A stretch of 64,000 nt of DNA from Sphingopyxis sp. (lineage in GTDB: Bacteria > Pseudomonadota > Alphaproteobacteria > Sphingomonadales > Sphingomonadaceae). Below the pieces are notes generated by a model that was given only the letters and a program-made list of their open reading frames with translations, was not told where the DNA came from and made no database searches. A program made the position numbers and the translations under genes. The number at the start of each line of letters is the position of its first letter. The first letter of the stretch is position 1. Below, piece by piece: positions 30,205 to 52,823 of this stretch. The stretch spans positions 522,903 through 586,902 of the forward strand of contig NZ_JAEULM010000044.1 of NCBI RefSeq assembly GCF_016793825.1. The letters run 5' to 3'.

Positions 30205-30448
30205 CAATAAGGAAATGACCGGCTGCCGTGAAACCGACGGCCGGCACTTTCTTCGAAAGACGCCCGACTGACCAGTTGCGAACCCTCGGCTTCCAGATAA
30301 GAAAATGCAGCAAGATGACGTTCAAGTCGCAGATCTTGCAATCGCGAGCCACTTGCGCAGCCCGAAAAGTAAGTCGACGAACGTCTCCGCCGCGCCCTCT
30401 ACAACGTCAAATCAATTAACGATAAACTGATGCAGGCACTTGTACCCG

Positions 30449-31339
30449 TCAACGGTTTCGCGCGGCGATGGTTGCCCGCATGACGGCGCTTTCGCTCGCT
30501 CTGCCGAGCTTTCCGTTGAGCCAACAACCCGTGTCCACCAATTGATCCACATCTATCCCGCCGGCGATCCGGTCACCAAAGGCATAAGCGATGTCCTCGC
30601 TCGCGACATTGCCCGCGGCACCGGGAGCGAAGGGACATCCGCCGGTGCCGCCGATCGCGGCGTCGATCGTCGCCGCGCCCGCGGCTGCAGCGGCGACGCT
30701 GTTGGCGACCCCCATGCCGTGCGTGTCATGGAAATGGACGCGGACGGGCAACGGCGCAACGGCGTCTCTGACGAGGGCAACGAGTCGCCCTGCCTCGTCG
30801 GGGCGAGCGATGCCGATAGTGTCGGCGAGCGAGATTTCGCGAATGGGGGAACCGGCAAGACGTCGCGCCATCGCCACAACCCGAAGGGGATCGACGGCTC
30901 CGTCGAACGGACAGCCGAAGGCCACCGCCAGCGTCACCTGTGCCGGCCGGCCGGCCTCCCGCGCCTCTGCCAGAACGCGTTCGGCCATGGCGGCGCATCC
31001 CTCGGCCGACATGCCCTGATTTGCGATCGCGAAGCCGTCAGTCATCGGCACAACCAGGCCGATCTCCCCGATATTCGTAGCCAGCGCGCGCTTCGCGCCC
31101 CGCTCATTCAGGACGAGGCCGATCGTGCGAATGGCGGGATCGAGGCGCAAGGCCGCGATCACCGCTTCGGCATCCGCCATCTGCGGCACGCGCGACGGGT
31201 TCACGAAACTGGCCACCTCGATCCGCCGTATGCCGGATGCGACCGCGCGTTCGATCAGTGCGACCTTCGTTGCCGCGGACAGAATCGCGGTTTCGTTCTG
31301 CAGCCCGTCGCGGGGCGACACTTCAACCAGTTCGATCAT
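30449..31339 (-). CDS. hydroxymethylglutaryl-CoA lyase-like aldolase
   Basis: About 296 residues, DRE-TIM metallolyase. All HMG-CoA lyase features are present: SPRDGLQNE (8-16, with R10 and D11 matching the catalytic Arg and metal Asp), ASFVNPSRVPQMADA, VHFHDTHGMG with the metal His pair, and the flexible loop GGTGGCPFAPGAAGNVASED with the catalytic Cys. HMG-CoA lyase cleaves 3-hydroxy-3-methylglutaryl-CoA to acetoacetate and acetyl-CoA at the end of leucine or isoprenoid catabolism; homologues cleave other branched 3-hydroxyacyl-CoAs. Here it is nine bases behind the epoxide-hydrolase-like gene and under the shared MarR-type operator, so a branched-chain or terpenoid-derived substrate is plausible. 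Confidence 0.92.
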   Translation of the reverse strand: MIELVEVSPRDGLQNETAILSAATKVALIERAVASGIRRIEVASFVNPSRVPQMADAEAVIAALRLDPAIRTIGLVLNERGAKRALATNIGEIGLVVPMTDGFAIANQGMSAEGCAAMAERVLAEAREAGRPAQVTLAVAFGCPFDGAVDPLRVVAMARRLAGSPIREISLADTIGIARPDEAGRLVALVRDAVAPLPVRVHFHDTHGMGVANSVAAAAAGAATIDAAIGGTGGCPFAPGAAGNVASEDIAYAFGDRIAGGIDVDQLVDTGCWLNGKLGRASESAVMRATIAARNR

Positions 31340-31348
31340 GCAACGGGG

Positions 31349-31735
31349 CTAGTCCGCAATCTGCCGCTCGTACATGCCCCAATCATAATATTCGCGCCAT
31401 GTACGTATCAGCCCGTCCTCGACCTCGAAAATCCCGACCGCGGGCAGGATGCCTGACTTACCGCGCGCCGTGAAATGATCGCGGCGCTCCAGCGTGACGA
31501 CATTGCCCTCGACGCGGCGGTTGAGCACCTCCATCCGCACCGCCGTCGCGATCGCGAAAAAGCCGTCGAGCATCGCCTTGATCTCGGCCTTCCCGCGATA
31601 CGGCTCCTTCATCATGCTCTGCATCACCGCGTCGTCATGGAACAACGACAGGATCAGATCGCCGTCGAGCTTCTGCCATCCCTCCTTCATCCGGTCGACC
31701 ACCGCCAGTGCAGCTTCTTCGTCGGGGCTACGCAT
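31349..31735 (-). CDS. limonene-1,2-epoxide hydrolase-like / SnoaL-fold enzyme
   Basis: About 128 residues from the ATG at 31735 (GAGGGAGAG upstream); a longer frame to 31804 would run through the operator. The NTF2/SnoaL cone fold shows DEEAALAVVDRMKEGWQKLDGDLILSLFHDDAVM at the start. The Arg-x-Asp...Asp triad of limonene epoxide hydrolase is matched by R84 and D86 in LERRDHF and D118 in TWREYYDWG, at nearly the same spacing. LEH opens epoxides by direct hydrolysis with this triad. Function as an epoxide hydrolase is therefore likely but other SnoaL-type isomerases cannot be excluded. First gene of a two-gene unit with the HMG-CoA-lyase-like gene. Confidence 0.75.
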   Translation of the reverse strand: MRSPDEEAALAVVDRMKEGWQKLDGDLILSLFHDDAVMQSMMKEPYRGKAEIKAMLDGFFAIATAVRMEVLNRRVEGNVVTLERRDHFTARGKSGILPAVGIFEVEDGLIRTWREYYDWGMYERQIAD

Positions 31736-31787
31736 GTGAATATCTCTCCCTCTGTCCATTCGATCCCGATGGCCGAAATGGGATTTC

Positions 31788-31803
31788 GTCAAATCTATTG
31801 ACA
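31788..31803 (-). promoter_or_regulatory. MarR-type operator copy 1 (epoxide-hydrolase-like / TBDR promoter region)
   Basis: Minus strand TGTCAATAGATTTGAC, 15 of 16 identical to the copy at 35927-35942. Arms GTCAA and TTGAC are exact inverted repeats. It lies between the divergent genes at 31735 and 31897. Confidence 0.7.
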
Positions 31804-31896
31804 ATAATAACTCTCATGCGTCATCTTCAACATGTCAACCAGCTTTACAAAGCGGCAAACCGCGAGGGGCTGGCGAAGCGTGGAGGGAGAGCGAAA

Positions 31897-34104
31897 ATGG
31901 GCATTTCCGGCAAAGGAATATGGCTGGTCGGGGCAAGCTTGCTGGCGTCGCCGGCGTACGCGCAAGACGAAAGCGGCACGGCTCGGGATTCGACGGCCCA
32001 GATGAGCGGCCCAACCGACATTGTGGTCACTGCCCAGCGCCGCGAACAGCGGCTGCAGGATGTGCCGATCTCGATAGCCGTCGTATCTGGCAACACGCTC
32101 GAAGACCGCGCGATCCAGAATTTCGAGCAGCTCGCACCACTGGTTCCCAACCTCACCATCGCGAAAACGCCGGCCGCGAATCTGATCGTTCTTCGCGGCA
32201 TCGGATCGAGTGCCGGCAGCCCGTCGCTCGATCAATCGGTCGTGATGTTCGTCGACGGCATCTATGCAGGCAATGCGCGCCAGTTCGCGGCACCCTTCCT
32301 CGACATCGAACGGCTCGAGGTGTTGCGCGGCCCGCAGGGGGCGCTCGTTGGCCGCAACACCAGTGCCGGCGCCATCAATATTCTGACGCGCCGGCCGGGA
32401 GATACTTTCGGCGGCTATGTCCTCGGCGACTATAATTTCACGTTCGACGGTCCCAGCGTCGAGGCCGGGCTCGATATCCCGGTCACGGGCAATTTCGCCA
32501 TCCGCGCGGTTGGGCGTTATTCGGATACAGAAGGTTATATCTACAATGACCTCGTCGATCAGAATCAGCCCACGCGGCGCGAGCTAATCGGCCGTATTAC
32601 GGGCAGGCTGGAGAGCGGGCCGGTGACGTTGCTCGCCAAATATGAGCATGCCGACGTCGATATCGAGGGATCGCCGGTGCAGGTTTTCGCCCCTGCGAAC
32701 AACGAGTTTCGCGACTATCGCAAGAGCAGCCGCCTGCTGAACGGCCCGGAATACGACAACATCGTCACCGACAATGCGGTCGTGCAGTTCGATATCGATC
32801 TCGGTGGCCCGACGCTGACATCGATCAGTGGCTTTTCTGCCTTCCGCAACCGCAACCTGATCGATGCCGACTTCTTCGCCGGCAATTTCGCGACAGCCGA
32901 CTTCGATCAGGATTTTCAACAATTGTCGCAGGAGGTCCGCCTCACCTCTCCGTCGGGCGGCAAAATCGAATATTCGGTCGGGGCCTATTATTCGGTCGCC
33001 GACCTTGACGAAGAACGCACGACCGGCGTGCTCTTTGCGCCGGCGGCCAGCACCTTCCGCCAGTTCAATCAGGAAGACCGCGCCCTCTCGGTGTTCGGCC
33101 AATTGACGTGGATCGTATCCGAAAGCCTGCGGATCAACGGTAGCGGGCGCTGGACGCATCAGGAAAAGAGCGCGGACTACCTCCGTCTGGGCGGCACCCA
33201 GGCCGCAACCGACCGTGTCGGCGCCGTGCAGGCCGATTTCAGTGGCAAGACCAAGGACAGTCGCTTCGACCCTGCCGCATCGATCCAGTTTTACGCCAAT
33301 CGCAACTCGATGCTCTATCTGAGCTTCGGCAAGGGGTCCAAGAGTGCGGGCTTCCAGGGTGCGATCTCGAACGCATCTGCGGCGACCTTCGCCTACAAGC
33401 CCGAACGGTCGACCGCCTTCGAAGCGGGCGCGCGACTGAGCTTTCCCGGCACCGGATATCTGAACCTCGCGGCCTTCCATACGACCTACCGCGACCTGCA
33501 GGTTTCGGCAGGTATTTCGGTTCCGGGCTCGCTCGCCGCCATCTTTTTCACCGGCAACGCCCCCAAGGCACGCATCGCGGGGCTCGAAGCCGAATTCCTC
33601 GCGCGCAGCGGTCCTTTCCAGCTCGACGGCAGCCTTGCCTGGCTGCCCACCGCCAAATATGTCGATTTCACCGCCGGCCCCTGCTACGCATTGCAGCCGA
33701 GCAACGGCACCCTGCCCGGCACCTGCAACCAGACGGGCCAGCGACTGGGCTTCACTCCCAAATTTTCCGGCGCGGTGAACGGCACGGTGAGCGTGCCCGT
33801 GGGGGACAGCCTGCAGATCAAGGCGACGATTTCACCCAGCTTCCAGTCGGGGAACTTCCGCGACTTCACCAACGACCCGGTCGCGCGGCAGGACAGCTGG
33901 CTGAAACTCGATGCGAGACTTTCGTTCGGGATGATCGATGAAGGCTGGGAGGTCGCCCTGGTCGGGCGCAACCTGACGAACAAGCTGACCAACGCATACA
34001 GCAATACCGCGGGACTCGCGAACACCTTCCTCAATCCGGCGGCGCGCGTCACGGTCGTCGATCCGCCGCGCAACGTCTCGATCCAGGCGCGCTACAAATT
34101 CTGA
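31897..34104 (+). CDS. TonB-dependent receptor of the catabolic cluster
   Basis: About 735 residues from the ATG at 31897 behind GGAGGGAGAGCG. Signal peptide MGISGKGIWLVGASLLASPAYAQ; TonB-box region DIVVTAQRREQRLQDVPISIAVVSG, a sequence typical of receptors beside sphingomonad catabolic genes; plug with VVMFVDGIYAGN and IERLEVLRGPQGALVGRNTSAGAINILTRRP; C-terminal strand PRNVSIQARYKF. It is divergent from the epoxide-hydrolase/aldolase pair, with the MarR-type operator between, so it is probably the outer-membrane entry for the cluster's substrate. Convergent with the marR gene, with an 11-bp perfect hairpin at the junction. Confidence 0.93.
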   Translation: MGISGKGIWLVGASLLASPAYAQDESGTARDSTAQMSGPTDIVVTAQRREQRLQDVPISIAVVSGNTLEDRAIQNFEQLAPLVPNLTIAKTPAANLIVLRGIGSSAGSPSLDQSVVMFVDGIYAGNARQFAAPFLDIERLEVLRGPQGALVGRNTSAGAINILTRRPGDTFGGYVLGDYNFTFDGPSVEAGLDIPVTGNFAIRAVGRYSDTEGYIYNDLVDQNQPTRRELIGRITGRLESGPVTLLAKYEHADVDIEGSPVQVFAPANNEFRDYRKSSRLLNGPEYDNIVTDNAVVQFDIDLGGPTLTSISGFSAFRNRNLIDADFFAGNFATADFDQDFQQLSQEVRLTSPSGGKIEYSVGAYYSVADLDEERTTGVLFAPAASTFRQFNQEDRALSVFGQLTWIVSESLRINGSGRWTHQEKSADYLRLGGTQAATDRVGAVQADFSGKTKDSRFDPAASIQFYANRNSMLYLSFGKGSKSAGFQGAISNASAATFAYKPERSTAFEAGARLSFPGTGYLNLAAFHTTYRDLQVSAGISVPGSLAAIFFTGNAPKARIAGLEAEFLARSGPFQLDGSLAWLPTAKYVDFTAGPCYALQPSNGTLPGTCNQTGQRLGFTPKFSGAVNGTVSVPVGDSLQIKATISPSFQSGNFRDFTNDPVARQDSWLKLDARLSFGMIDEGWEVALVGRNLTNKLTNAYSNTAGLANTFLNPAARVTVVDPPRNVSIQARYKF

Positions 34105-34111
34105 TCGCGCT

Positions 34112-34139
34112 TGCGCGGCGGCGGATCAGCCGCCGCGCA
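34112..34139. terminator. bidirectional hairpin between TBDR and marR stops
   Basis: Perfect inverted repeat TGCGCGGCGGC / GCCGCCGCGCA with loop GGATCA, covering the marR stop codon and lying seven bases after the TBDR stop. No U-run on either side, so it may act as a weak or factor-assisted bidirectional terminator. Confidence 0.5.
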
Positions 34140-34587
34140 GCGTAATCGTTGCGGGCGATCCCCAGTCGGCGACAAAGGCCTCGCGTAGCGCCTGCACCGC
34201 GCGCTTGCCGATCCGCCGCGTCAGTTCATCGGTGAGCTGATCGACGATCTGCTTCGCGTCCGCGCGCATGGCATTTCCGAGCGCGGTCAGCACGACCTGC
34301 TTGATGCGGCCATCATCGGGATCGTCCTCGAGCGCGAAAATGCCACGTTCGACCAGGGAGGTAATCGTCGAATGCACCGCCTGCCGCGTGATACGCAGGC
34401 TGCGCGCAATGTCTGCGGGGCGCGTGATACCCAACTGGACATGCATCATGACCATCGATTCCGGCCGGGTCAACGCGGGCTGACCGTTCGCGACGAGGCT
34501 GCGCTGGAGGCTTTCGTCGAACCATTCGAAACCCTGCAGCAAGGGTACAATCAGATAATCCGAACGGTGAAGAGGTATATCGCCCAT
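34126..34587 (-). CDS. MarR-family transcriptional regulator, probable master regulator of the cluster
   Basis: About 153 residues from the ATG at 34587 (AGGGGCGAT upstream; a TTG at 34623 is less likely). The winged helix is clear: MHVQLGITRPADIARSLRITRQAVHSTITSLVERGIFALEDDPDDGRIKQVVLTALG, with the DxDxR-type wing that contacts DNA in MarR proteins (here DDPDDGRIK). Fifteen bases behind the HsaA-like gene, so co-transcribed with it. Because a 16-bp palindrome recurs before this unit and three other promoters of the cluster, and this is the only regulator encoded among them, it is the best candidate to bind it, including its own promoter. Ligand unknown; CoA thioesters or free aromatic acids are common MarR ligands. 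Confidence 0.9.
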   Translation of the reverse strand: MGDIPLHRSDYLIVPLLQGFEWFDESLQRSLVANGQPALTRPESMVMMHVQLGITRPADIARSLRITRQAVHSTITSLVERGIFALEDDPDDGRIKQVVLTALGNAMRADAKQIVDQLTDELTRRIGKRAVQALREAFVADWGSPATITLRGG

Positions 34588-34638
34588 ATCGCCCCTATGC
34601 CCGCCGGAGCCGTGCTTTGCCAAGCCTCTTTGCCCCGT

Positions 34639-35877
34639 TCACAACAGAGCCGAGTTGGGCGGCAATCCGACGAGCGCGCGGCCGTGCAGTTCGGTGGCGA
34701 CGTCCTGATCATAGACGATGTGGCTCTGCATCACCTGAACGTCGCGAAGCATGCGCTGCAGCGGGTTCGACAAGGCATGGACACTCGACCCGACAGCTTC
34801 ACAGCAGGTCCGTACCGCCTCGACGCATTGCTGGACCGCAAAGGCGACCTGCGCACGCAGACGGATGCGCTCGATCGTCTGCGCAGGCTCGTCGATAGCA
34901 CCGATCGCAATATTCTCGCGCGCCACCGAACGGATTGCCAGTTCCGCCGACCGGGCAAGAATGTCGGCACGGGCAAGGCGCATTTGGGCGGCAGGCTTGT
35001 CGACCGACGTCGTCGCCATGCCCATCTTCACATGGCCGGCAAGCCGCGCGCGGCAAAGCGCGATCGCGCCACGGGCCGCGCCAAGCGCCGGAATCGATGC
35101 CGTGACGCAAAGGTTCGGCAGCATCGGTGACCCATAAAGGCCATTGCCGTGGATCTCGCGCCCGTTTCCCCGACCCGACCGCACCGGCCCGACCGCAAAG
35201 CCGTACCCTTCGGGAACGAAATGATCGTCGACCGCAATGTCATTGCTGCCGGTCGCCGCCATGCCCGCCATCTGCCAGGTGTCGATGACGCGCGCGTCGC
35301 CCGCGGGCAGGATGAACATGCGAGCATCTGGCGGCGATCCCTCGGGAACCGGCACCATCGCATTCAGCATCACCCAGTCGGCATGCATCACGCCCGATCC
35401 CCATTTCCATCGGCCGGTCAGCCTGAACCCGCCGTCGACCGGTTCGGCCCGTCCGGGCGGTGACGCGCAGCTGGGCGCGATGACATAGGGGAAGCGAGCC
35501 CAGATCTCGGCCTGCGTCGCCTCGGGCAACTGCGCGATCAGCCAGTTATGTTCGGCAGCAAAGCAGGCCGCCCAGGCCGTCGACGGGCAAGCCTCAGCAA
35601 GCGGCAGCGTAGCGCTGATATAGGTATCGGGATCGAATTCGAGTCCGCCGAAGCGCCGCGGCACATAGACATAGAAATAGCCCGTCGCGCGGATCGCGTT
35701 CCACACGGCATCGACCGGTCGGCGCAGCCGCTCGGCCTCGTTTGCGTGGTCCGCAGCGAGCGGCTTCAGCGTCGCCATACGGTCGATCAGTATCTCGGGC
35801 GTCAGTGCGGCCAGCTCCGCAGCGGAGAGATAGTCGCCACCCGTCGGGATCCGGCGATCAGCCAGCGCTTCGCTCAT
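34639..35877 (-). CDS. acyl-CoA-dehydrogenase-fold flavin monooxygenase (HsaA / HpaH-like)
   Basis: About 412 residues. It shows the N-terminal acyl-CoA dehydrogenase domain (AIRATGYFYVYVPRRFGGLEFDPDTYISATLPLAEACPSTAWAACFAAEHNWLIAQLP), the middle beta-domain (DGGFRLTGRWKWGSGVMHADWVMLNAM) and a C-terminal Acyl-CoA_dh_2 type domain (GSSVHALSNPLQRMLRDVQVMQSHIVYD). The SGxxHADW and the missing catalytic base place it with group D flavin monooxygenases such as the steroid-ring hydroxylase HsaA and 4-hydroxyphenylacetate hydroxylase, which need a flavin reductase; none is nearby. It probably hydroxylates a phenolic or cyclic intermediate. Upstream partner of marR; MarR-type operator 50-65 bases before its start. 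Confidence 0.85.
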   Translation of the reverse strand: MSEALADRRIPTGGDYLSAAELAALTPEILIDRMATLKPLAADHANEAERLRRPVDAVWNAIRATGYFYVYVPRRFGGLEFDPDTYISATLPLAEACPSTAWAACFAAEHNWLIAQLPEATQAEIWARFPYVIAPSCASPPGRAEPVDGGFRLTGRWKWGSGVMHADWVMLNAMVPVPEGSPPDARMFILPAGDARVIDTWQMAGMAATGSNDIAVDDHFVPEGYGFAVGPVRSGRGNGREIHGNGLYGSPMLPNLCVTASIPALGAARGAIALCRARLAGHVKMGMATTSVDKPAAQMRLARADILARSAELAIRSVARENIAIGAIDEPAQTIERIRLRAQVAFAVQQCVEAVRTCCEAVGSSVHALSNPLQRMLRDVQVMQSHIVYDQDVATELHGRALVGLPPNSALL

Positions 35878-35926
35878 CCTTGCCTCCCTTATCCGTTCGC
35901 CGCGATTGTCGCCGATCGAACAACAA

Positions 35927-35942
35927 TGTCAATATATTTGAC
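35927..35942 (-). promoter_or_regulatory. MarR-type operator copy 2 (monooxygenase-marR promoter)
   Basis: TGTCAATATATTTGAC on the plus strand; exact inverted arms GTCAA and TTGAC around TATAT. It sits 50 bases before the monooxygenase-marR unit, which suggests autoregulation. Used here as the reference copy for the other sites. Confidence 0.7.
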
Positions 35943-35946
35943 GTTA

Positions 35947-37113
35947 TCATTCTGTCGTGCGGTCAAGCCACCGGGCAAAAATCGCGTCATTATCCTCGCC
36001 CACGGCGACGGGTGCTGGTTTGCGGATGCTTCCGGGCGTCGCCGACAATTTCGGGAAGACGCCCTGCATGGGGGTCGGACCGCGGGCGGGATCGTCTACC
36101 GTCACGATCGCATCGCGTGCCGCGAAATGGGGATCGGCAAGCATGGCTTCGGCGTCATATATCCGCCCCGCGGGTACGCCTGCGTCGATCATCCGTTCTT
36201 CAAGTTCGTCGACGGTGAGCGTCCGCGTCCACGCGGCAATCAATGCGTCGAGCTCTTCCTGTCGCTCCCCGCGCGCCAGATGCGTCGCATAGCGCGGATC
36301 GCGCGCAAGGTCCGGGCGCCCCATGCTTTCGCACAGCCGCGCAAAGACGCCGTCCTGATTGGCGCCGATCAGATACTCGCCGTCGCGGCACGGATAGACG
36401 TTCGACGGCGCAATGCCCGGCAAAGCCGAGCCGGAGCGTGCCCTCTTCGTTCCCGCCACTGCATATTCCGGCACGAGCGACTCCATGACCTGCAGCACCG
36501 ATTCATAGAGGGCCGCATCGACGACCTGCCCTTCACCGCTGACCGACCGGTGGTGAAGCGCCGCGAGCGCCCCCATGCAGCCATAGGTCGCCGCCAGTGT
36601 ATCGCCGATCGACACTCCCATGCGCGCGGGCGGCAGATCGGGATAGCCGACGATGCCGCGCCATCCGCCCATCGCCTCCCCGATCCCGCCGAAGCCAGCG
36701 CGGCGGGAATAGGGTCCGGTCTGGCCATAACCAGAGACACGAACCACAATTAGCCGCGGATTGCCCGCGCGCAGTCCGGCAGGATCGAGGCCCCATTTCT
36801 CCAGCGTCCCGGGACGGAAATTCTCGATCAATATGTCCGCCTGTCCGATCAGGGCGCGGGCATCGGCCTGCCCTTCCGGACTTCGCAGGTCGAGCGCGAC
36901 CGAATATTTGTTGCGTGCAATCACCCGCCACCATGTCTTCGGCTCGCCCTGCCCCCAGTCGCGCATGGGGTCGCCACCGCCAGGAGGCTCGATCTTGACC
37001 ACCTCCGCCCCCATATCTCCCAGCAACTGGCCGCAGAAGGGGCCGGCGATAAGCTGTCCCATCTCGACCACGCGAATGCCCGTCAGGGGGCCGCCCGCCT
37101 CCACCGTCATCAT
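35947..37113 (-). CDS. CaiB/BaiF-family (class III) CoA-transferase
   Basis: About 388 residues. Start at the ATG pair 37113/37110 behind GAGGACAG; the longer frame to 37236 covers the promoter. Family motifs: GIRVVEMGQLIAGPFCGQLLGDMGAEVVKIEPPGGGDPMR, NKYSVALDL, ENFRPGTLEKWGL, and the catalytic Asp (D171) in VSIGDTLAA. C-terminal SNVYPCRDGEYLIGANQDGVFARL is the small-domain pattern. Class III enzymes move CoA between carboxylic acids through an enzyme-bound anhydride; many racemase relatives act on 2-methylacyl-CoA, but the D and not H/D/E racemase set favours a transferase. Located between two MarR-type operators and divergent from the VOC gene. Confidence 0.92.
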   Translation of the reverse strand: MMTVEAGGPLTGIRVVEMGQLIAGPFCGQLLGDMGAEVVKIEPPGGGDPMRDWGQGEPKTWWRVIARNKYSVALDLRSPEGQADARALIGQADILIENFRPGTLEKWGLDPAGLRAGNPRLIVVRVSGYGQTGPYSRRAGFGGIGEAMGGWRGIVGYPDLPPARMGVSIGDTLAATYGCMGALAALHHRSVSGEGQVVDAALYESVLQVMESLVPEYAVAGTKRARSGSALPGIAPSNVYPCRDGEYLIGANQDGVFARLCESMGRPDLARDPRYATHLARGERQEELDALIAAWTRTLTVDELEERMIDAGVPAGRIYDAEAMLADPHFAARDAIVTVDDPARGPTPMQGVFPKLSATPGSIRKPAPVAVGEDNDAIFARWLDRTTE

Positions 37114-37153
37114 CTGTCCTCTTCTTTCGCTTGCGGATCGCATCATAGACATT

Positions 37154-37169
37154 CGTAAATATATTTGAC
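37154..37169 (+). promoter_or_regulatory. MarR-type operator copy 3 (CaiB / VOC promoter region)
   Basis: CGTAAATATATTTGAC, 14 of 16 identical to copy 2; the left arm is degenerate (GTAAA in place of GTCAA) while the right arm is intact. It lies between the divergent CoA-transferase (start 37113) and VOC protein (start 37235). Confidence 0.65.
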
Positions 37170-37234
37170 AATCTTCGCCGTGCGAGCTTTGATTTGCGCA
37201 AGGGCCCGAACCGGCCTGTAGCAGGAGAGATGCC

Positions 37235-37822
37235 ATGGCCGAAGCGCCGCCGGCGATCCCCCTTGGCGGGATCCATCACAACGCCTTTCGCTGCCGGGAT
37301 GCGGCGCAGACGCGCTGGTTCTACGAAGAAGTGCTCGGGCTGAAGGCCGCCGCCGGACTGGTCATCGACACCGTGCCGGGAACTGGCGCCGAAACGCCCT
37401 ACATGCATATCTTCTTCGAACTGGGCGACGGCAACTACATCGCCTTCTTCGATTCGCCCTATGACGCCGACGCCGACTGGTTCGATGCGAAGAACAGCTT
37501 CGACATGCATGTCGCGATCGAGGCGAAAACCAGAGGCGACATGCTGGCCATGCAGGACCGGATCAAGGCATTGGGGGTCAAGTGCTTCGGTCCGATCGAT
37601 CATGATTTCGTCGAATCGGTCTATATGTACGATCCGAACGGCATTCAGGTCGAAATCACCTGCCGCACCGCGGACCACGAGCGGATCATGGCGGACGAAG
37701 CGGCGCATCTCGACGACGTCATGGCGGCGTGGAGCGAACGGACGCGCCAGCTCAAGGAAGAGAAATTCGGGGCGGACTCGCTGGCCAATCGTGGCAGTCG
37801 CTGGCCGGCGATGAGGCACTGA
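37235..37822 (+). CDS. VOC-superfamily protein (glyoxalase/extradiol-dioxygenase-like)
   Basis: About 195 residues: one VOC module (GGIHHNAFRCRDAAQTRWFYEEVLGL ... VYMYDPNGIQVEITCR) plus a 45-residue charged helical tail. Possible metal ligands are H14/H15, H92 in DMHVAIE and E140 in GIQVEIT, the His-His-Glu spacing of type I extradiol dioxygenases and glyoxalases. A full two-domain dioxygenase would be about 300 residues, so this is a single-domain member; isomerase, epimerase or dioxygenase activity are all possible. It starts a plus-strand unit with the alpha/beta hydrolase and MFS carrier. A GCAGGAGAG ribosome site precedes the ATG. Confidence 0.88.
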   Translation: MAEAPPAIPLGGIHHNAFRCRDAAQTRWFYEEVLGLKAAAGLVIDTVPGTGAETPYMHIFFELGDGNYIAFFDSPYDADADWFDAKNSFDMHVAIEAKTRGDMLAMQDRIKALGVKCFGPIDHDFVESVYMYDPNGIQVEITCRTADHERIMADEAAHLDDVMAAWSERTRQLKEEKFGADSLANRGSRWPAMRH

Positions 37823-37824
37823 CG

Positions 37825-38970
37825 ATGGCAGTCGAGAAAATCCCCTATCTCGTCGTTTTCGAAGAGAGCGCCCACTTCAAGGACACCTATGGCGGCGTAC
37901 CCGGACGCGTCGCAATCGAGTGCATGCACCTGAAACCCGATACGCCGTCGGACACGGTCGTGATCTTTTCGCACCCGATCGGCGGCGGTGCCTGGCTGCC
38001 GCTGCCGCTCGCGATGGCGCGCGCGGGCATTCATGTCATCTATGCCAACACGCGCTACCGTGGCAACGACAGCGCCCTGATCATGGAAAAATGTGCGCTC
38101 GATTTCGGCGCTGCCATTCGCGATGCGAAGGAACGTCTGGGGTACGACCGCGTCATTCTGGGCGGCTGGTCCGGCGGCGGTGCGCTGTCGCTTTTCTACC
38201 AGGCGGAGGCAGAAGATCCGCGCGTCGTCGCCACGCCGTCAGGCGACCCGGTCAATCTGGTCGAGGCAGGGCTGGTCAAGGCCGACGGCATCGCGTTGCT
38301 TGCGGCCCACCTGTCGCGCAACCGAACGCTTACCGAGTGGATGGACCCGTCGATTACCGACGAGAGCAGGCCGTTCGACCGCGACCCCGCGCTCAACATC
38401 TATGATCCCGCGAACCCGGCTCTACCGCCCTATGACGCGGCCTTCATCGAAACCTATCGCGCCGCGCAGATCGCCCGCAACCGGCGGATCACGGCCTGGG
38501 TGAAGGACGAGCTGGCACGGATCGAAGCGAGCTCGCATCCGCACGACGAGCGTGGTTTCACGACACATGGCACGATGGCCGACCCCCGCTTCATCGATGC
38601 CACATTGGAGCCGAGCGAACGCAAGCCCAACTGGTGCATGCTTGGTGATCCGCGCATGGCGAACGACGGGCCGACGGGGCTGGCCCGCTTTTCGACGCTG
38701 CGCAGCTGGCTGTCGCAGTGGTCATATGACGACAGCAACGCCGACGGCATCCGTTGCGCGGCGCGGGTTTCGGTGCCGATGCTGGTGATCGAACATGGCG
38801 CCGACGATGCCTGTACGCCCAGCCATGCGGCCCGTTTGATGGCGGCCGCGGTCAAGGCGCCGCAACAGCATCACGTCATCGCTGGCGCGGGACATTATCT
38901 GATAGGCCAGCCCGACAAGGCGAAGGAAGGGGTGCGGTTGTTCGGCGACTGGTTGAAAGCCGCCTTTTGA
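37825..38970 (+). CDS. alpha/beta hydrolase
   Basis: About 381 residues from the ATG at 37825, two bases after the VOC stop; the longer frame overlaps that gene. Oxyanion region IFSHPIGGGAWLP, nucleophile S116 in LGGWSGGGALSLF, a late Asp (EHGADDACTP) and the catalytic-type His in IAGAGHYLIGQP. A long insertion (roughly residues 130-290) forms a cap domain. No signal peptide. In the context of a Baeyer-Villiger monooxygenase, this could hydrolyse the ester or lactone made by that enzyme; alternatively it could cleave a ring-fission C-C bond after the VOC protein. Both are inferences. Confidence 0.88.
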   Translation: MAVEKIPYLVVFEESAHFKDTYGGVPGRVAIECMHLKPDTPSDTVVIFSHPIGGGAWLPLPLAMARAGIHVIYANTRYRGNDSALIMEKCALDFGAAIRDAKERLGYDRVILGGWSGGGALSLFYQAEAEDPRVVATPSGDPVNLVEAGLVKADGIALLAAHLSRNRTLTEWMDPSITDESRPFDRDPALNIYDPANPALPPYDAAFIETYRAAQIARNRRITAWVKDELARIEASSHPHDERGFTTHGTMADPRFIDATLEPSERKPNWCMLGDPRMANDGPTGLARFSTLRSWLSQWSYDDSNADGIRCAARVSVPMLVIEHGADDACTPSHAARLMAAAVKAPQQHHVIAGAGHYLIGQPDKAKEGVRLFGDWLKAAF

Positions 38971-40295
38971 CGTCCGCTGCGTGCGACGGGCAGCGAGAGG
39001 CGGGCGCGCCACTCGGCTACAGCTATTATGTCGTCGTCCTGCTGATGCTCGCGTATATGCTGTCGTTCCTCGACCGCGTTCTCATCAGCCTGCTCGTCGA
39101 ACCGATCCGCGGCGAGTTCGACCTCGGCGATACCGAAATCGGTCTGCTCGTGGGCTTCGGCTTCGTGCTGTTTTACACGATCCTGGGCGTGCCGTTCGGC
39201 GCCGCTGCCGATCGGACCAACCGGCGCAATCTGATCGTGCTCGGGCTGATCGGCTGGAGCCTCGCCACAGCAGGCAGTGGGCTGGTCGCCGGCTTCGGCG
39301 GCCTTTTGCTGATGCGCGCGCTCGTCGGGGTCGGCGAAGCGACTCTCTCGCCCGCTGCGCTGTCCACGATCGCCGACCGCTTTCCGCCCGACAAACTGGG
39401 TTTCGCGATTTCGATCTACTCGTCGGGCGTCGTGCTCGGCGGCGGGCTTGCCATGGGGTTCGGCGGCATGATCGCCGAATGGGCCGCACAAACCACCGTC
39501 AATATCCCGGGCTGGGGCCTTCTTGACGGCTGGCGGCTTGCGATGCTGCTCGTCGGCCTGCTCGGCCTGCCGCTGGCGCTGGTCCTGCTGACAACTATGC
39601 GCGAAGCACCCCGCGGCGGAAGCGCAGACGCGGTTCCGGGCATCGGCGCGCTGATCGCCATGATGAAGTCGCATTCGGCAGCCTTCGCTACCGTATTCTT
39701 CGGCTATGGCTGCGCGGTCATATCGGCCTATATTCCGATGCTCTGGGGCCCCGCGCTGCTCGCCCGCGAACATGGGCTGGCTCCGGCAGAGATCGGCGCG
39801 GCGCTGGGCGTCATCGTCGGTATTTGCGGATTCGCGGGGGTATTGGCCGGCGGCGCGGTATCCGACCGGCTGGCGCGGCGGGGTATAGTGCATGCGCCAG
39901 TCCTTCTGGTGCTGGCAACACTTCCACCCCAGTGCCTGGCGCTCGCCACCGCCTATTTGACGGACGATACCGGGCTGACGCTTGTCCTTCTCGGCCTCGG
40001 CACCTTTCTGTCGTCGATCCTCGGCGGACTGCAAGCCACGACGGTCCAGTTGCTGACGCCTGCGCCTATGCGCGGGCGCGCGATGGCGATCTACCTCTTG
40101 GTCGTGACCCTGCTCGGTATGGGATTAGGGCCGCTGGCTATCGGCCTGCTCAGCGATCATATATTCGGCGGCTTGCCTTCATCGCTTGCGACCGTCTCCA
40201 TCGTATCGCTGACGCTTGCGGGGGCTATTTTGTGGACGGGGCGCCGCGCGGTCGCGCGATCGATCCGCGCCGCCGGCCAGCAGCCCCCCGCCTAG
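38967..40295 (+). CDS. MFS transporter (aromatic-acid/spinster-like)
   Basis: About 442 residues, twelve helices. YVVVLLMLAYMLSFLDRVLISLLVEPIRGEF is the spinster-like first helix with the D-R pair, GVPFGAAADRTNRRNLI the loop 2-3 motif and ALVGVGEATLSPAALSTIADRFPP helix 4. The only suitable start is a TTG (38967) whose TTGA overlaps the hydrolase stop; no in-frame ATG or GTG precedes the first helix. The tail overlaps the convergent acyl-CoA ligase by four bases. Probable inner-membrane importer of the cluster's substrate or an intermediate. Confidence 0.88.
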   Translation: MTSAACDGQREAGAPLGYSYYVVVLLMLAYMLSFLDRVLISLLVEPIRGEFDLGDTEIGLLVGFGFVLFYTILGVPFGAAADRTNRRNLIVLGLIGWSLATAGSGLVAGFGGLLLMRALVGVGEATLSPAALSTIADRFPPDKLGFAISIYSSGVVLGGGLAMGFGGMIAEWAAQTTVNIPGWGLLDGWRLAMLLVGLLGLPLALVLLTTMREAPRGGSADAVPGIGALIAMMKSHSAAFATVFFGYGCAVISAYIPMLWGPALLAREHGLAPAEIGAALGVIVGICGFAGVLAGGAVSDRLARRGIVHAPVLLVLATLPPQCLALATAYLTDDTGLTLVLLGLGTFLSSILGGLQATTVQLLTPAPMRGRAMAIYLLVVTLLGMGLGPLAIGLLSDHIFGGLPSSLATVSIVSLTLAGAILWTGRRAVARSIRAAGQQPPA

Positions 40296-41812
40296 TCGCC
40301 CGCACCGGTCGCTTCGGCGCGCAACTCGCGTTTCAATATCTTTCCGGCGGCCGAGCGCGGGAGCGGCTCGCGGCGCAGGTCAAAGCTTTTGGGAACCTTA
40401 TAGCGAGCTATCCGCTCGCGGCAGAATTCCGCGAGTTCCCGCGCATCGGGCTCGGGCACGCCATCGGCAAGGGCGATAATCGCATGGACCCGCTCGCCCC
40501 ATTCGCGATCGGGGAGGCCGACAACGGCGACTTCGGCAACCGCCGGGTGCCAGCTCAGGGCATTTTCCACTTCGATCGAATAGATATTTTCGGCGGCGGA
40601 CACGATCATGTCCTTCAGCCGGTCGGTGATCGTGATATAGCCGTTTTCGTCCATCCGACCCGCGTCGCGGGTGTGAATCCGGCCATCGCGTAACACCTCG
40701 GCTGTTTCCTCGGGCCGGTTCCAATAACCCATCATCACATTGTCGCCGCGCCCCACGATCTCGCCGACCTCGCCCGGCGCGCACTCTCGCCCGTCCTCAT
40801 CAACGATCCGGATATCATAGCCGTAGCAAGCACGGCCGCAGCTGCCGAGACGTGCCGGATCGCCCGACCGATGATCCTCGGGCGTCAGGATCGTCGCAGC
40901 CGGAAATTCGGTCTGACCATAGCCCTGACAGAAGCCCACGTTCGGGAAGCGTTCGCGCGCCGCCGCCTGTGAGCCCGCCGTCATCGGCGCACCACCATAG
41001 CCCAGGATACGAAGCGCGTCGAAACGCCCGCCCCGCGAGGTCGACGAAGAGACCAGCCGTTCGATAATCGTGGGCACCGTAAAGCAATGCGTCACCCGAT
41101 GCTCGACGAAATCGGCAAGCATGGTCTCCGCATCGAGCTGGCGGCGAAAGACGTGTGTCCCGGCGGCCATCGTGCCGAACAACGTCCCGATATCCGCAAG
41201 GTGAAACATCGGCGCCGCATGGAACAGGACATCGCCTTCGCGAAAATCGATATGCGCCAGCAGGTTCGACGCCATCGCGGTCAAATTCGCATGGCTCAGC
41301 ATGACGCCCTTCGGGAGGCCTGTGGTCCCGCCGGTATAGAATATTCCGGCCAGGTCGCCGGGGGCAGAAGCCTCGGCCAGCGGCGCACTTGCCGTCACCA
41401 GGGCCTCGCGCACTCCGGGGCCGTCGCCGTCCATGGCAATTATGGATTTCACCGCCCCCCGTTGCAGCAACGCCTGCGCGACGGCCTCATATTCCCGACC
41501 GAACAACAGGATATCCGCACCGGCATCGCGAAGCTGAAAGGCCAGTTCGGGAGGCGCAAGCCGGCAATTCAACGGCACGATAACCCCTCCCGCCCAGGGG
41601 ATGGCAAACCAGATCTCGAAATATGCGCTACCGTTGTCGGACAGCACCGCAACCCGGTCGCCCGGCGCGATACCGCTCATGGCAAGCGTTGCGGCGAGCC
41701 GCGCTACCCGATCGCCCGTTTCGGCCCAACTGCGACGAAGCCCTTCTTCAATCGTAGCAGTCCGCGCTCCGGCAACACGCGCGGCTTTCGCAACTGCCTG
41801 ACTGATTTGCAT
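40292..41812 (-). CDS. acyl-CoA synthetase / AMP-dependent ligase (cluster)
   Basis: About 506 residues, ANL superfamily. P-loop-like A3 motif FYTGGTTGLPKGVMLSH, A5 region GYGQTEFPAATILTPEDH, A7 GRGDNVMMGYW with HTRDAGRMDENGYI, hinge DRLKDMIVSAAENIYSIEVE and the A10 catalytic Lys in PRSAAGKILKRELR. Activates a carboxylate to its CoA thioester via an adenylate. Start is the ATG at 41812 behind GGGGTGGGT, which leaves operator copy 4 in the leader (17-32 bases upstream); the frame to 41845 would translate through it. It is divergent from the Baeyer-Villiger monooxygenase operon. The acid produced there after hydrolysis and oxidation is a reasonable substrate. Confidence 0.93.
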   Translation of the reverse strand: MQISQAVAKAARVAGARTATIEEGLRRSWAETGDRVARLAATLAMSGIAPGDRVAVLSDNGSAYFEIWFAIPWAGGVIVPLNCRLAPPELAFQLRDAGADILLFGREYEAVAQALLQRGAVKSIIAMDGDGPGVREALVTASAPLAEASAPGDLAGIFYTGGTTGLPKGVMLSHANLTAMASNLLAHIDFREGDVLFHAAPMFHLADIGTLFGTMAAGTHVFRRQLDAETMLADFVEHRVTHCFTVPTIIERLVSSSTSRGGRFDALRILGYGGAPMTAGSQAAARERFPNVGFCQGYGQTEFPAATILTPEDHRSGDPARLGSCGRACYGYDIRIVDEDGRECAPGEVGEIVGRGDNVMMGYWNRPEETAEVLRDGRIHTRDAGRMDENGYITITDRLKDMIVSAAENIYSIEVENALSWHPAVAEVAVVGLPDREWGERVHAIIALADGVPEPDARELAEFCRERIARYKVPKSFDLRREPLPRSAAGKILKRELRAEATGAGD

Positions 41813-41828
41813 ACCCACCCCAAAACTT

Positions 41829-41844
41829 GTGAACTTTATTGACA
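41829..41844 (-). promoter_or_regulatory. MarR-type operator copy 4 (acyl-CoA ligase / BVMO promoter region)
   Basis: Minus strand TGTCAATAAAGTTCAC, 13 of 16 identical to copy 2, with the GTCAA arm intact. It is located 17 bases before the ligase start and about 250 bases before the Baeyer-Villiger monooxygenase start. The remaining 230 bases of this divergent spacer hold no gene. Confidence 0.55.
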
Positions 41845-50247: not shown

Positions 50248-52593
50248 TCAATATTTCCAGGACAGCGAGAGGCCGTAGGTGCGCGGCGGATTGACCGTCC
50301 GGCCGATGATCCCGAGCCCGGTCAGCGTATCGCTCGACACTGTATAAACCTCGTTCGACAGATTCTTGCCCCACAGCGCGGCTTCCCATTTTCCGTCCTT
50401 CCACGACAGCGCGACCCGCGCGTCGAACAGCCAGTACGGATGCTGGACCGAGTAGATGTCGTTCGACGCATCCTTATAGGCCGTGCTCTGGTGGGTGAAA
50501 TTGCCCTGGAGCACGAGGTTGAAATCGCCATTGCCGATCGGCGTCTCGTATCGGGCGAGGCCGTTCCACATGAACCCCGGGGCGTTCGAAAAGCGATTAT
50601 CGGTAAAAGTACCGCTGCCGTTCGTGAAAGGCGCCAGCTTCGTGTGCAGAAGTCCGATCCCCGACTGCAGCGTAAAGCCGGTGAAGGGCCGGAAGCTGAC
50701 ATCGGCTTCGACGCCATAGATTTCCGATTTGCCGGGAATATTGCCCAGCCGCTGCGCCGGAACGGCGAGCGATCCGTCGAGAATGAGCGCCTGCACATTC
50801 TTGAAATCATAATAGAATGTCGCGGCGTTGATCGTGAAGTTCGAGAGCGGCTGTGACCGCACGCCAATTTCATACGCGATCAGCGATTCCGGGTTGAAGG
50901 GCAGCAACTGGGCCGGAATGGTCGAAATGCGCGATACGAAGCCGCCGCTCTTCGTGCCTTTCGAGGCACTGGCGTAGAGCAGCGTATCGGGTGCCACACG
51001 ATAGTCGAGCCCGAACTTCCACGACCAGTTCTTGTCGCTGATCGTCGTGTCGGTATAGGACGAGAAAATACCGAAAGGCGCACAGGGATTGGTGGCAATC
51101 GGGCACAGGGGGAAGTCGGTGCCGCCTACATAATGGCGCTTTTCCCAAGTATAACGCACCCCGGTGATCAGATCGAGATTATCGCCAAGATGCCAGGTTC
51201 CATTCACGAAGCCGGCCGCAGATTTCGTCTTCTGGTCGAAGGTGGTGTAACCCGTCTGACTGGGGAAACCGAACAATACGAGCGGAAACTCGGTCAATAT
51301 ATTGTCATTGAGCCCGCGAGCGCGGTCCCATGAATAAAAGCCGCCGACGATGACGTCGACCAGATCGGAATCGTGCGCAAGGCGCAGTTCCTGGGTGAAC
51401 TGCTTCACATTGTCACGCTGGATGAAGTCCAGTTCGTCGCGCGGCGTGGCGTCGACGTCGATCCGGTAAGCGCGCTTGAAATCGATATAGCCGGTGATCG
51501 CTGTCAGCTTGACGTCGCCCAGATCGTAATTTGCCGCGAAGGACAGCGAATGCTGGTTGAGATCGTAGGGAAGATCGGCCGACTGATCGATGTCGTAGGG
51601 ATCGTTGCTGGTATTGGTAAAGCCGTAGGCGTCCGCACATTGGCTGTTGTCGACCTTGCCCGCCAGCACGGGCGCGCAAAGCACGAAGGGCTGACCCGGT
51701 ACAAAGGCCCCAAAGAATTCATACTGGCCCATTTCGGACCGGGCCTGCTGATATTCATATTTCAGGTTGAGATCGAGCCCGTCGCCCGAGTCATAGCCAA
51801 GCTGCGCGCGGCCCATCCAGACATGGCGTTCGCCGACGTCGCGTTCGCCGATGGCGCCGCCGATCAACCGCGAACTCGTCCAGAACCCCCGCTCCTGCTG
51901 GATCGTCTTGCCGCTGAAGCGCGCTGCCAGCCCTTCGCCGAGCGGAATGTTGATCATCGCCTCGGCATCGAGCGTCTGGTAGTTGCCATAGCCGATCGAT
52001 GCCGCCGCGTCGAAGCGGTCCTTCGGCCGGGCCGAGATGACGTTCATCGCGCCTGCCACCGTGTTGCGACCATAGAGCGTACCCTGCGGCCCCTTCACCA
52101 CCTCGATCCGCTCGATATCGAAGAAGTCGGCGTTCATCAGCGCGATCGATGACAGCGGAACATCGTCGATCGACACGCCGGTCGCCGGACTGTTGGTCGT
52201 GCTGAAATCATCGAGGCCGACGCCGCGGATCGTCAGCACGGGGGACACGCCAGGAATGGATTCGCGGACGTCGATGTTCGGGATCGAACGTGCGATATCC
52301 TTGACCTGTTCGACGCGCGCTTCGGCGATGTTTTCGGAGGAGAGCGCCGAAATGCTGGCGCCGATGTCGATCAGGCGCTGGTCGCGGCGAAAGGCGGTCA
52401 CGACGATGTCGCCATCGGATGCTTCCGTGGCGCCGGCGTCCTGCGCCGGGGCTGTCGTCTGGGCAAAGGCGGGGCTTGTCAGGCCGGCCACGGCCGCGAC
52501 ACACAAACCCCGTGACAAATACCTCGCCGCAGTCGTCGAGCGCAGAATGTTTCGCAGCGAAGGCGACCCTTGACCCTTCGTCTTTTTCATCAT
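50248..52593 (-). CDS. TonB-dependent receptor (operonic with aldehyde dehydrogenase)
   Basis: About 781 residues. Signal region ends GLTSPAFAQ after an unusually long basic N-terminus (MMKKTKGQGSPSLRNILRSTTAARYLSRG). TonB-box region DGDIVVTAFRRDQRLIDIGASISALSSENI; plug with SIDDVPLSSIALMNADFFDIERIEVVKGPQGTLYGRNTVAGAMNVISARP; C-terminal RTYGLSLSWKY. GGGAGGATC precedes the first ATG; an ATG pair is present. It resembles the receptors that accompany aromatic and terpenoid catabolism in sphingomonads. Transcribed with the aldehyde dehydrogenase and divergent from the iron-type alcohol dehydrogenase; the 230-base spacer holds no copy of the MarR-type palindrome. Confidence 0.93.
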   Translation of the reverse strand: MMKKTKGQGSPSLRNILRSTTAARYLSRGLCVAAVAGLTSPAFAQTTAPAQDAGATEASDGDIVVTAFRRDQRLIDIGASISALSSENIAEARVEQVKDIARSIPNIDVRESIPGVSPVLTIRGVGLDDFSTTNSPATGVSIDDVPLSSIALMNADFFDIERIEVVKGPQGTLYGRNTVAGAMNVISARPKDRFDAAASIGYGNYQTLDAEAMINIPLGEGLAARFSGKTIQQERGFWTSSRLIGGAIGERDVGERHVWMGRAQLGYDSGDGLDLNLKYEYQQARSEMGQYEFFGAFVPGQPFVLCAPVLAGKVDNSQCADAYGFTNTSNDPYDIDQSADLPYDLNQHSLSFAANYDLGDVKLTAITGYIDFKRAYRIDVDATPRDELDFIQRDNVKQFTQELRLAHDSDLVDVIVGGFYSWDRARGLNDNILTEFPLVLFGFPSQTGYTTFDQKTKSAAGFVNGTWHLGDNLDLITGVRYTWEKRHYVGGTDFPLCPIATNPCAPFGIFSSYTDTTISDKNWSWKFGLDYRVAPDTLLYASASKGTKSGGFVSRISTIPAQLLPFNPESLIAYEIGVRSQPLSNFTINAATFYYDFKNVQALILDGSLAVPAQRLGNIPGKSEIYGVEADVSFRPFTGFTLQSGIGLLHTKLAPFTNGSGTFTDNRFSNAPGFMWNGLARYETPIGNGDFNLVLQGNFTHQSTAYKDASNDIYSVQHPYWLFDARVALSWKDGKWEAALWGKNLSNEVYTVSSDTLTGLGIIGRTVNPPRTYGLSLSWKY

Positions 52594-52823
52594 GATCCTC
52601 CCACCCCTTTCGCCGTAGTCCTGGCGGAAGGCTTTCCGTCAGGCGGCAAACTTTGTAATTTTATTTCGCAAAATGAAGCAGCAATGCAGCAAGAGGTCAA
52701 ATCCCTGAACGACATGGCTGGCATCTGCGATATGGATGGCACGATGACCCAAGGCTGATGGTACCCGTGAACCGAGGCCTGAGCGTTTCGGGCAGCGCAT
52801 CCGGGAAGGTCGAAGAAAAGATC

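Follow-up and report, generated by a model that had tools for sequence, protein, structure and literature searches.

Which protein acts at a palindrome that recurs between the genes of a bacterial catabolic cluster, and how many of those genes come under its control? The question arises in a 64,000-nucleotide stretch of the genome of a Sphingopyxis sp. (hereafter the window; C43:522903-586902 in an assembly of 3,859,738 bases in 52 contigs), where four such palindromes lie around a gene for a MarR-family regulator (34126-34587, minus strand) and genes for a monooxygenase, a TonB-dependent receptor, a CoA-transferase, a VOC protein, an alpha/beta hydrolase, an MFS transporter and an acyl-CoA ligase. 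We conclude that the palindromes are very probably operators of this MarR protein, and that its dimer would repress a compact catabolic regulon until a pathway compound releases it. That the palindrome is the operator of the regulator encoded at 34126-34587 is strongly supported at the level of sequence, since the two co-occur in relatives and the palindrome takes a matching position there.

Copies of a 16-mer were located at 31788-31803, 35927-35942, 37154-37169 and 41829-41844, in agreement with the original prediction, and differ from TGTCAATATATTTGAC by 1, 0, 2 and 3 mismatches, respectively; in 100 dinucleotide shuffles of the window the mean number of matches was 0.07 and no shuffle reached four. 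The element had been described as a 16-bp palindrome. Its dyad symmetry holds but its length does not, as it is a 15-bp inverted repeat, GTCAA-N5-TTGAC, with A/T flanks, and the dyad does not include the leading T of the 16-mer. Predicted operator site 1 (minus strand; core GTCAAATCTATTGAC, 31788-31802) lies between the divergent SnoaL-HMGL unit (minus) and TonB-dependent receptor gene (plus), 60 bp from the SnoaL start. Predicted site 2 (plus strand; core GTCAATATATTTGAC, 35928-35942) precedes the monooxygenase-marR unit (minus), 4 bp past the CoA-transferase stop codon and with its centre 58 bp before the monooxygenase ATG, both genes being on the minus strand. It is presumed to be autoregulatory: counted from this site, the monooxygenase gene comes first and marR second on one strand, which is the layout expected of autoregulation. 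Predicted site 3 (plus strand; core GTAAATATATTTGAC, 37155-37169) separates the divergent CoA-transferase gene (minus) and VOC-hydrolase-MFS unit (plus), and predicted site 4 (minus strand; core GTGAACTTTATTGAC, 41829-41843), the weakest of the four, stands 24 bp before the ligase start.

All four sites had been reported as intergenic, with none in coding sequence. This holds with the starts chosen here, 31735 (minus), 31897 (plus), 35877, 37113 (minus), 37235 and 41812 (minus), which were picked by reading ribosome-binding sites, with further evidence from the signal peptide of the receptor and the start of a ligase orthologue (L035:907). It does not hold with the longest open reading frames (ORFs), which cover site 1 (from both neighbours), site 3 (CoA-transferase) and site 4 (ligase), so the statement hinges on the choice of starts. 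Two sites absent from the earlier four-site set, neither with an assigned strand, were also found. One is a weak second site at 31834-31848 (GTCAACCAGCTTTAC), 46 bp from site 1 and upstream of the receptor gene, an arrangement comparable to the receptor genes of five Brevundimonas-type loci, which have two sites 34-35 bp apart. The other, at 30406-30420 (GTCAAATCAATTAAC), occupies a gap flanked by convergent genes, some 29 bp downstream of the HMGL stop codon.

Sites 1-3 stand out in the genome as a whole. The 16-mer matches 18 places with up to 3 mismatches, compared with 1 for a reversed control, and the only three matches with up to 2 mismatches are sites 1, 2 and 3; site 4 belongs to a group of 15 matches with exactly 3 mismatches and is unremarkable by itself. 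A longer pattern with A/T flanks and a partly A/T centre, WWNGTMAANWNWNTTKACNWW, chosen after viewing the sites of relatives and of the window, occurs with up to 1 mismatch in four places, all inside the cluster (sites 1, 2 and 3 and the 30406 site). With exactly 2 mismatches it occurs in 14 further places, site 4 included, which brings the total to 18 places compared with 13 in the reversed control. Hundreds of equally good genomic matches, which the original prediction had named as counting against it, are thus not present. Site 4 is acceptable mainly through its location.

The strongest evidence comes from relatives that carry the regulator. A contig scan with the MarR protein gave 13 named loci (52-74% identity), taken with up to 10 kb per side, from Brevundimonas, Sphingobium lactosutens, Hyphomonas johnsonii, Hephaestia caeni, Novosphingobium mathurense and metagenome bins. 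Exact GTCAA-N5-TTGAC occurs in every one of the 13, with 26 sites in 248 kb where 0.10 would be expected in first-order Markov sequence. The spacing is nearly invariant: when the 13 loci are counted together with six stretches, 20 kb each, from four family genomes that bear a MarR, a spacer of 5 accounts for 37 occurrences, a spacer of 6 for 3, and the other spacers from 0 to 13 for none. Some of the relatives' sites fall in predicted ORFs, several of them at over-long starts, and one (L085:18287) lies inside a receptor match. MarR and operator co-occur in Brevundimonas, Hyphomonas, several sphingomonads and some bins labelled Gammaproteobacteria, and in all but the last of these the enzyme set joins them. 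Matches to the hydrolase (72-75%), the VOC protein (57-64%) and the HMGL (62-68%) were each found in 7 of the 13 loci, to the monooxygenase in 5 (63-65%) and to the CoA-transferase proper in 2 (64-69%), while ligase matches reached up to 59%. The regulator is uncommon, as 9 of 249 sampled family genomes, the window's own counted, have a match with an E value of 1e-20 or lower. Five of the 13 loci (L031, L032, L033, L035, L043) also encode a second MarR, of group B (MarR-B; that of the window is MarR-A), and L042 was scored as MarR-A only, although MarR-B may lie beyond the stretch. One of these contigs, L032, is binned as Bordetella and has a gene order much like that of the Brevundimonas clusters; it is possibly mis-binned or a case of transfer.

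The position of the palindrome is conserved as well. Matrix 1, a symmetric matrix of 25 columns, was built from 63 distinct sites of relatives (arms with at most one mismatch, at least three A/T in the centre), with the window excluded and some sites inside genes. It ranks sites 1, 2, 3 and 4 as the best in the window, at 32.9, 32.3, 28.7 and 25.3, followed by 30406 (21.2), 31834 (17.7), 52655 (14.7) and 42795 (13.7). Matrix 2, for which 17 exact sites were taken from ten loci without a sphingomonad label (L041 being labelled only Pseudomonadota), scores the four at 32.4, 31.1, 24.8 and 24.5; the 30406 site equals site 4 at 24.5, the next best reaches 14.0, and the 31834 site has 11.4. Conservation upstream of orthologous genes, proposed with the original prediction as a check, was found for three genes. 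VOC orthologues have a site 66-114 bp upstream, mostly 66-81, in 9 of 11 MarR-bearing cases (window 73), the misses being L081, where the site precedes the preceding short-chain dehydrogenase/reductase (SDR) gene, and L082, where an exact site with its first base 74 bp upstream has a sub-threshold score. Monooxygenase orthologues have one 61-65 bp upstream in 4 of 5 (window 58), and receptor orthologues 85-113 bp upstream in 3 of 3 (window 102). Genes with no counterpart in the window follow the same pattern: a site lies upstream of two sets of acyl-CoA dehydrogenase (ACAD) genes (8/9 each), an APH gene (8/10), a second CoA-transferase (5/7), a flavin reductase (5/5), MarR-B (7/9) and other receptors (5/9 and 3/4). 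The gene for MarR-A itself usually comes second in its unit, and a site immediately precedes it in 3 of 15 cases. Mostly site-less in relatives are the thiolase (1/9), a second SDR (1/9), the sulfatase (0/4) and SGL (0/2), and neither the hydrolase (0/11) nor the MFS gene (0/1) has a site directly upstream.

Loci with the hydrolase and no such regulator provide a control. The hydrolase gene was found in 58 of 397 family genomes, and stretches of up to 20 kb around it were taken from 18 of the 58. In four of these genomes (G253, G189, G056, G185) the stretches include a group A or group B MarR, and exact sites are present in each of the four (11 in 120 kb altogether). The other 14 have neither at E 1e-6 within the fetched stretch, which leaves room for a copy elsewhere in those genomes, and contain no exact site in 278 kb and no matrix score of 17 or more (presence of MarR-A/B versus exact sites over the 18 genomes, Fisher 3e-4). 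VOC orthologues passing the filters were available in 3 of the 14, and none has the site upstream. Among MarR paralogues with loci of 3.4 kb, a third MarR group (L022-L025, 46-48% identical) gives no score above 8.8 and L026, L029 and L030 none above 5.3, while L027 and L028, which are nearer MarR-B, have sites scoring 26.6-27.5. Exact arms occur in none of the eight short paralogue loci counted (L022-L028 and L030); L029 belongs to G189, whose longer stretch does contain sites. On a tree of 36 MarR rows the window protein groups with nine named orthologues (98/95), and the deeper forks have modest support and long branches.

Several observations weigh against reading every palindrome as a MarR-A operator. 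The motif does not simply follow the tree, as the motif-less third group lies on the B side as drawn (86/76); a change in specificity there is our supposition. Since G253 and G056 show this motif with only MarR-B in the fetched stretch, its presence by itself does not point to MarR-A specifically. The arms alone are not enriched in the genome: GTCAA-N5-TTGAC with up to 1 mismatch has 87 matches compared with 111 in the reversed control, and exact arms occur in 3 places (two being sites 1 and 2) compared with 5, so the A/T-rich centre and flanks are required for specificity. Site 4 is weak, and only 2 of 8 ligase orthologues have an upstream site (at 48 and 97 bp; window 24). CoA-transferase (0/4) and HMGL (0/8) orthologues have no site directly upstream; of the site-less orthologues, those of the hydrolase and MFS genes counted with them, several lie inside apparent operons in relatives. 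The 30406 site has no evident promoter, with short ORFs only and no supported gene start nearby, and is possibly a relic of a lost one. Finally, the TTGAC halves may double as -35 boxes, an overlap which the flanking sequence supports weakly. Resemblance to a -10 hexamer peaks at spacer 17 with a mean of 1.65 of 6 (1.14-1.47 at other spacers from 8 to 31), TAnnnT stands at spacer 17 in 6 of 162 oriented half-sites and at other spacers in up to 5, and only two oriented half-sites in the window have a 4-of-6 hexamer at spacers 16-18.

How far the control extends depends on site 4. The original prediction proposed one regulon of about 18 kb, in which the regulator would also govern, through this site, a block encoding a Baeyer-Villiger monooxygenase (BVMO), NTF2, PQQ, NTF2 and SDR proteins. 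Site 4 does separate the ligase gene from the divergent BVMO gene, and the interval between them yielded no better operator-like sequence; however, the likely BVMO start (ATG 42093, behind GGGAGAGATAGA) is 257 bp away from it, and neither the BVMO nor the PQQ genes have a match in the 13 relatives' loci with up to 10 kb per side. Moreover, the closest homologue of the BVMO in the 397 family genomes shares 58% identity, and no comparable site is present in the loci of 11 BVMO homologues (best score 18.3, compared with 25.3-32.9 for the window sites). We therefore regard the wider extent as unlikely, and the supported regulon as most likely the 11.4 kb from 30449 to 41812. Within it, MarR would most likely repress the monooxygenase-marR, TonB receptor, VOC-hydrolase-MFS and ligase units, and SnoaL-HMGL and the CoA-transferase are assigned to it by position, because they adjoin sites 1 and 3 in the window only. 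The earlier placement of all listed units under one regulator thus survives for the VOC, monooxygenase and receptor units, where site position is conserved, weakly for the ligase (2/8), and not for the BVMO block. A weak operator-like sequence at 52655-52669 (matrix 1, 14.7) lies about 70 bp upstream of a second TonB-dependent receptor gene (50248-52593) and is not backed by matrix 2 (9.3).

The MarR could instead be an activator, or act as a roadblock, rather than as a classical repressor overlapping the promoters. Site 4, only 24 bp before the ligase start codon, and the mild enrichment of -10-like hexamers at spacer 17 would fit such a role. The other sites, however, precede start codons by about 50-100 bp and are found between divergent genes and ahead of the unit that encodes the regulator, as is usual for a repressor, and CouR, whose operator likewise has a 5-bp spacing, is a repressor (PMC4737184). 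We consider this mode of action improbable.

Still less probable is the binding of another regulator, either an unlinked MarR or a flanking LysR protein, with the neighbouring marR as a bystander. The original prediction named marR as the only regulator within the set, and Pfam indeed shows no other between 30449 and 41812; LysR genes lie outside the cluster at 26442, 27527 and 53963. Of these, the LysR protein encoded at 27527 was compared with the 13 relatives' loci and matched in just one, at 24%. MarR-B alone accompanies the motif in two genomes, and another MarR gene of this genome (L118) has a related palindrome beside it; against this, the sites track MarR-A/B across genera and are absent from the 14 family hydrolase loci without them, and no MarR-B was found in the window's genome. 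The L118 palindrome, ACAGTAAAGTTACTTTACTGT (L118:1501-1521; G000:C7:134082-134102), is a perfect one of 21 bp between the MarR gene and a gene of the mandelate-racemase/muconate-lactonizing-enzyme family. Its centre resembles the MarR-B type, and the adjacent MarR is 32% identical to that of the window over 77 amino acids. An artefact of chance or composition is hardly credible: intergenic DNA is A/T-richer and a 50% GC background lifts the genomic expectation at site 4's score from 0.009 (genome composition) to 0.44, but on that same background the scores of sites 1-3 are expected 0.06 times or less per genome, and relatives have 26 exact sites against 0.10 expected.

The presence of two MarR groups at similar palindromes raises the question of how they share them. 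Brevundimonas-type loci have G/C at both outer centre positions in the sites of MarR-B/monooxygenase, flavin reductase and one of two receptor sites, an A/T centre before ACAD-MarR-A and the ligase, and an intermediate centre at the second CoA-transferase and VOC/ACAD2 sites. When the sites ahead of the unit encoding the regulator are compared, 0 of 11 for MarR-A and 6 of 8 for MarR-B have G/C at both positions (Fisher 0.001 for hand-picked sites, and 0.045 with the Brevundimonas-type loci collapsed), and over all sites the split between G/C and A/T centres is not significant (p 0.07). The recognition helices read TRQAVHSTI in MarR-A and SRQAMSQFL in MarR-B. Tentatively, the two proteins may share the GTCAA/TTGAC arms and divide the pathway by the two outer centre bases, MarR-A taking sites with A/T at both at CoA-processing genes and MarR-B those with G/C at both (G-TAA-C type) at the receptor, aromatic hydroxylase and flavin reductase. 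The monooxygenase promoter of the window has an A-type centre, and under this division its MarR-A would have taken over the hydroxylase promoter through a centre change. A MarR-B elsewhere in the genome was considered as a co-regulator and rejected, as the window's genome, queried with MarR-B, gave no such protein, its matches being the MarR of the window at E 6e-15 and a weak locus on C40 at E 7e-4. The two-paralogue pattern amounts to a small natural experiment on the divergence of regulator and operator specificity.

The arrangement in the window is an ordinary one, as an autoregulated local MarR regulon is of a well-known kind. The MarR catabolic repressors PcaV and HcaR have pseudopalindromic operators at the promoters of neighbouring catabolic operons, with operator sequences and pathways that differ from those of the window. 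Proteins of the MarR family act as homodimers, and a ligand controls how they bind DNA. From the motif, its statistics, its co-occurrence with marR and its position, we infer binding, repression, the extent of the units and the effector as follows. The MarR dimer would bind with one winged helix per GTCAA/TTGAC half-site, and in the bound state would sit before the transcription units of the regulon from 30449 to 41812, its own monooxygenase-marR unit included, and repress them. A layout in which operators precede the regulator's transcription unit and separate divergent genes suits repression that some compound of the pathway lifts; a CoA thioester formed by the ligase is a plausible candidate, as is a product of ring hydroxylation or cleavage.

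By layout, the closest precedent is CouR of Rhodococcus jostii RHA1. In MarR dimers each winged helix takes one half of an inverted repeat, and CouR is a repressor of the MarR family that responds to p-coumaroyl-CoA (PMC4737184). As in the window, its regulon is local, an inverted repeat with a 5-bp spacer (cATTGA--TCAATg) stands in each of four promoters, one repeat serves divergent promoters, and the catabolism is CoA-linked; unlike in the window, the half-site is another one and the repeat is reported to overlap the -35 box (PMC4737184), which is only weakly suggested here. Each regulon promoter of the window has a 5-bp-spacer repeat, that of site 4 being imperfect. The CouR type is further marked by a CoA-thioester ligand and by N-terminal arginines on which DNA binding depends. 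Saro_0803 of Novosphingobium aromaticivorans is likewise a MarR-like catabolic regulator of a sphingomonad with an A/T-rich inverted repeat, but the repeat is GCAATA------TATTGC (PMC10046596). Membership of the window MarR in the family of Saro_0803, NF053777, is ruled out by a score of 31.2 bits against a cut-off of 200. The literature covered, which left most subscription journals outside, yielded no paper on the operator sequence variants or on a MarR with GTCAA/TTGAC, and no title or abstract start dealing with this MarR group. We propose GTCAA-N5-TTGAC with A/T flanks as the operator of a MarR group not linked here to a described regulator. It marks which genes belong to the catabolic pathway, and use in a sensor is possible once the effector is known.

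The regulator has 153 amino acids from the likely ATG at 34587 (a TTG at 34623 is possible) and matches PF12802 with 34.4 bits (cut-off 27). Its AlphaFold2 model (pLDDT 87.1) has helices and a beta hairpin in winged-helix order, and a PDB sequence search with the protein gave nothing at E 0.001. The first gene of the presumed marR-holding unit (34639-35877, minus) encodes the oxygenase component of an HsaA-like flavin-dependent monooxygenase, with 233 bits to NCBIfam HsaA, under the equivalog cut-off of 450, and E 1.8e-50 to PDB 2rfq. The class III CoA-transferase gene (35947-37113, minus; PF02515, 421 bits) follows. On the plus strand are the genes for the VOC (glyoxalase-fold) protein (37235-37822; PF00903), the alpha/beta hydrolase (37903-38970, start uncertain, with a longer ORF from 37729; PF00561) and the MFS transporter (38754-40295, the longest ORF, true start probably later; PF07690), and on the minus strand is that of the AMP-forming acyl-CoA ligase (40292-41812; PF00501, PF13193). 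At the other end lie the genes for the TonB-dependent receptor (31897-34104, plus; PF00593, PF07715), a SnoaL-fold protein (31349-31735, minus; PF12680, scanned from 31732) and an HMG-CoA-lyase-like aldolase, the HMGL referred to above (30449-31339, minus; NF004283, 260.3 bits, cut-off 246). The last two had been called an epoxide-hydrolase-like/aldolase pair, which we correct: one is a SnoaL-fold protein that also matches LEH more weakly, and the other is of the HMG-CoA-lyase type.

Family searches, solved structures, plasmid neighbours and literature gave no named pathway for these enzymes. Plasmid pMI1 of Sphingobium sp. MI1205 (L134) has genes annotated as VOC, hydrolase, CoA-transferase and HMGL beside LeuCD-like and LuxR-type genes, and a Sagittula stellata plasmid (L133) has the hydrolase near an IclR gene. 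Neither plasmid stretch contains an exact site or a score above 11.1, so such enzymes occur under other regulators. Two relatives' loci (L031:7607-9909 and L034:7682-9966) have an APH-type phosphotransferase gene divergent from an ACAD gene with the operator between them. The pairing recalls ACAD10/11-type handling of 4-hydroxyacyl-CoA and may hint at the pathway chemistry, and a literature search on this link found nothing relevant. The clusters of L031, L032, L033 and L035 include a sulfatase gene (e.g. L035:12909-14603) without a site of its own (0/4), and the natural substrate could be a sulfate ester.

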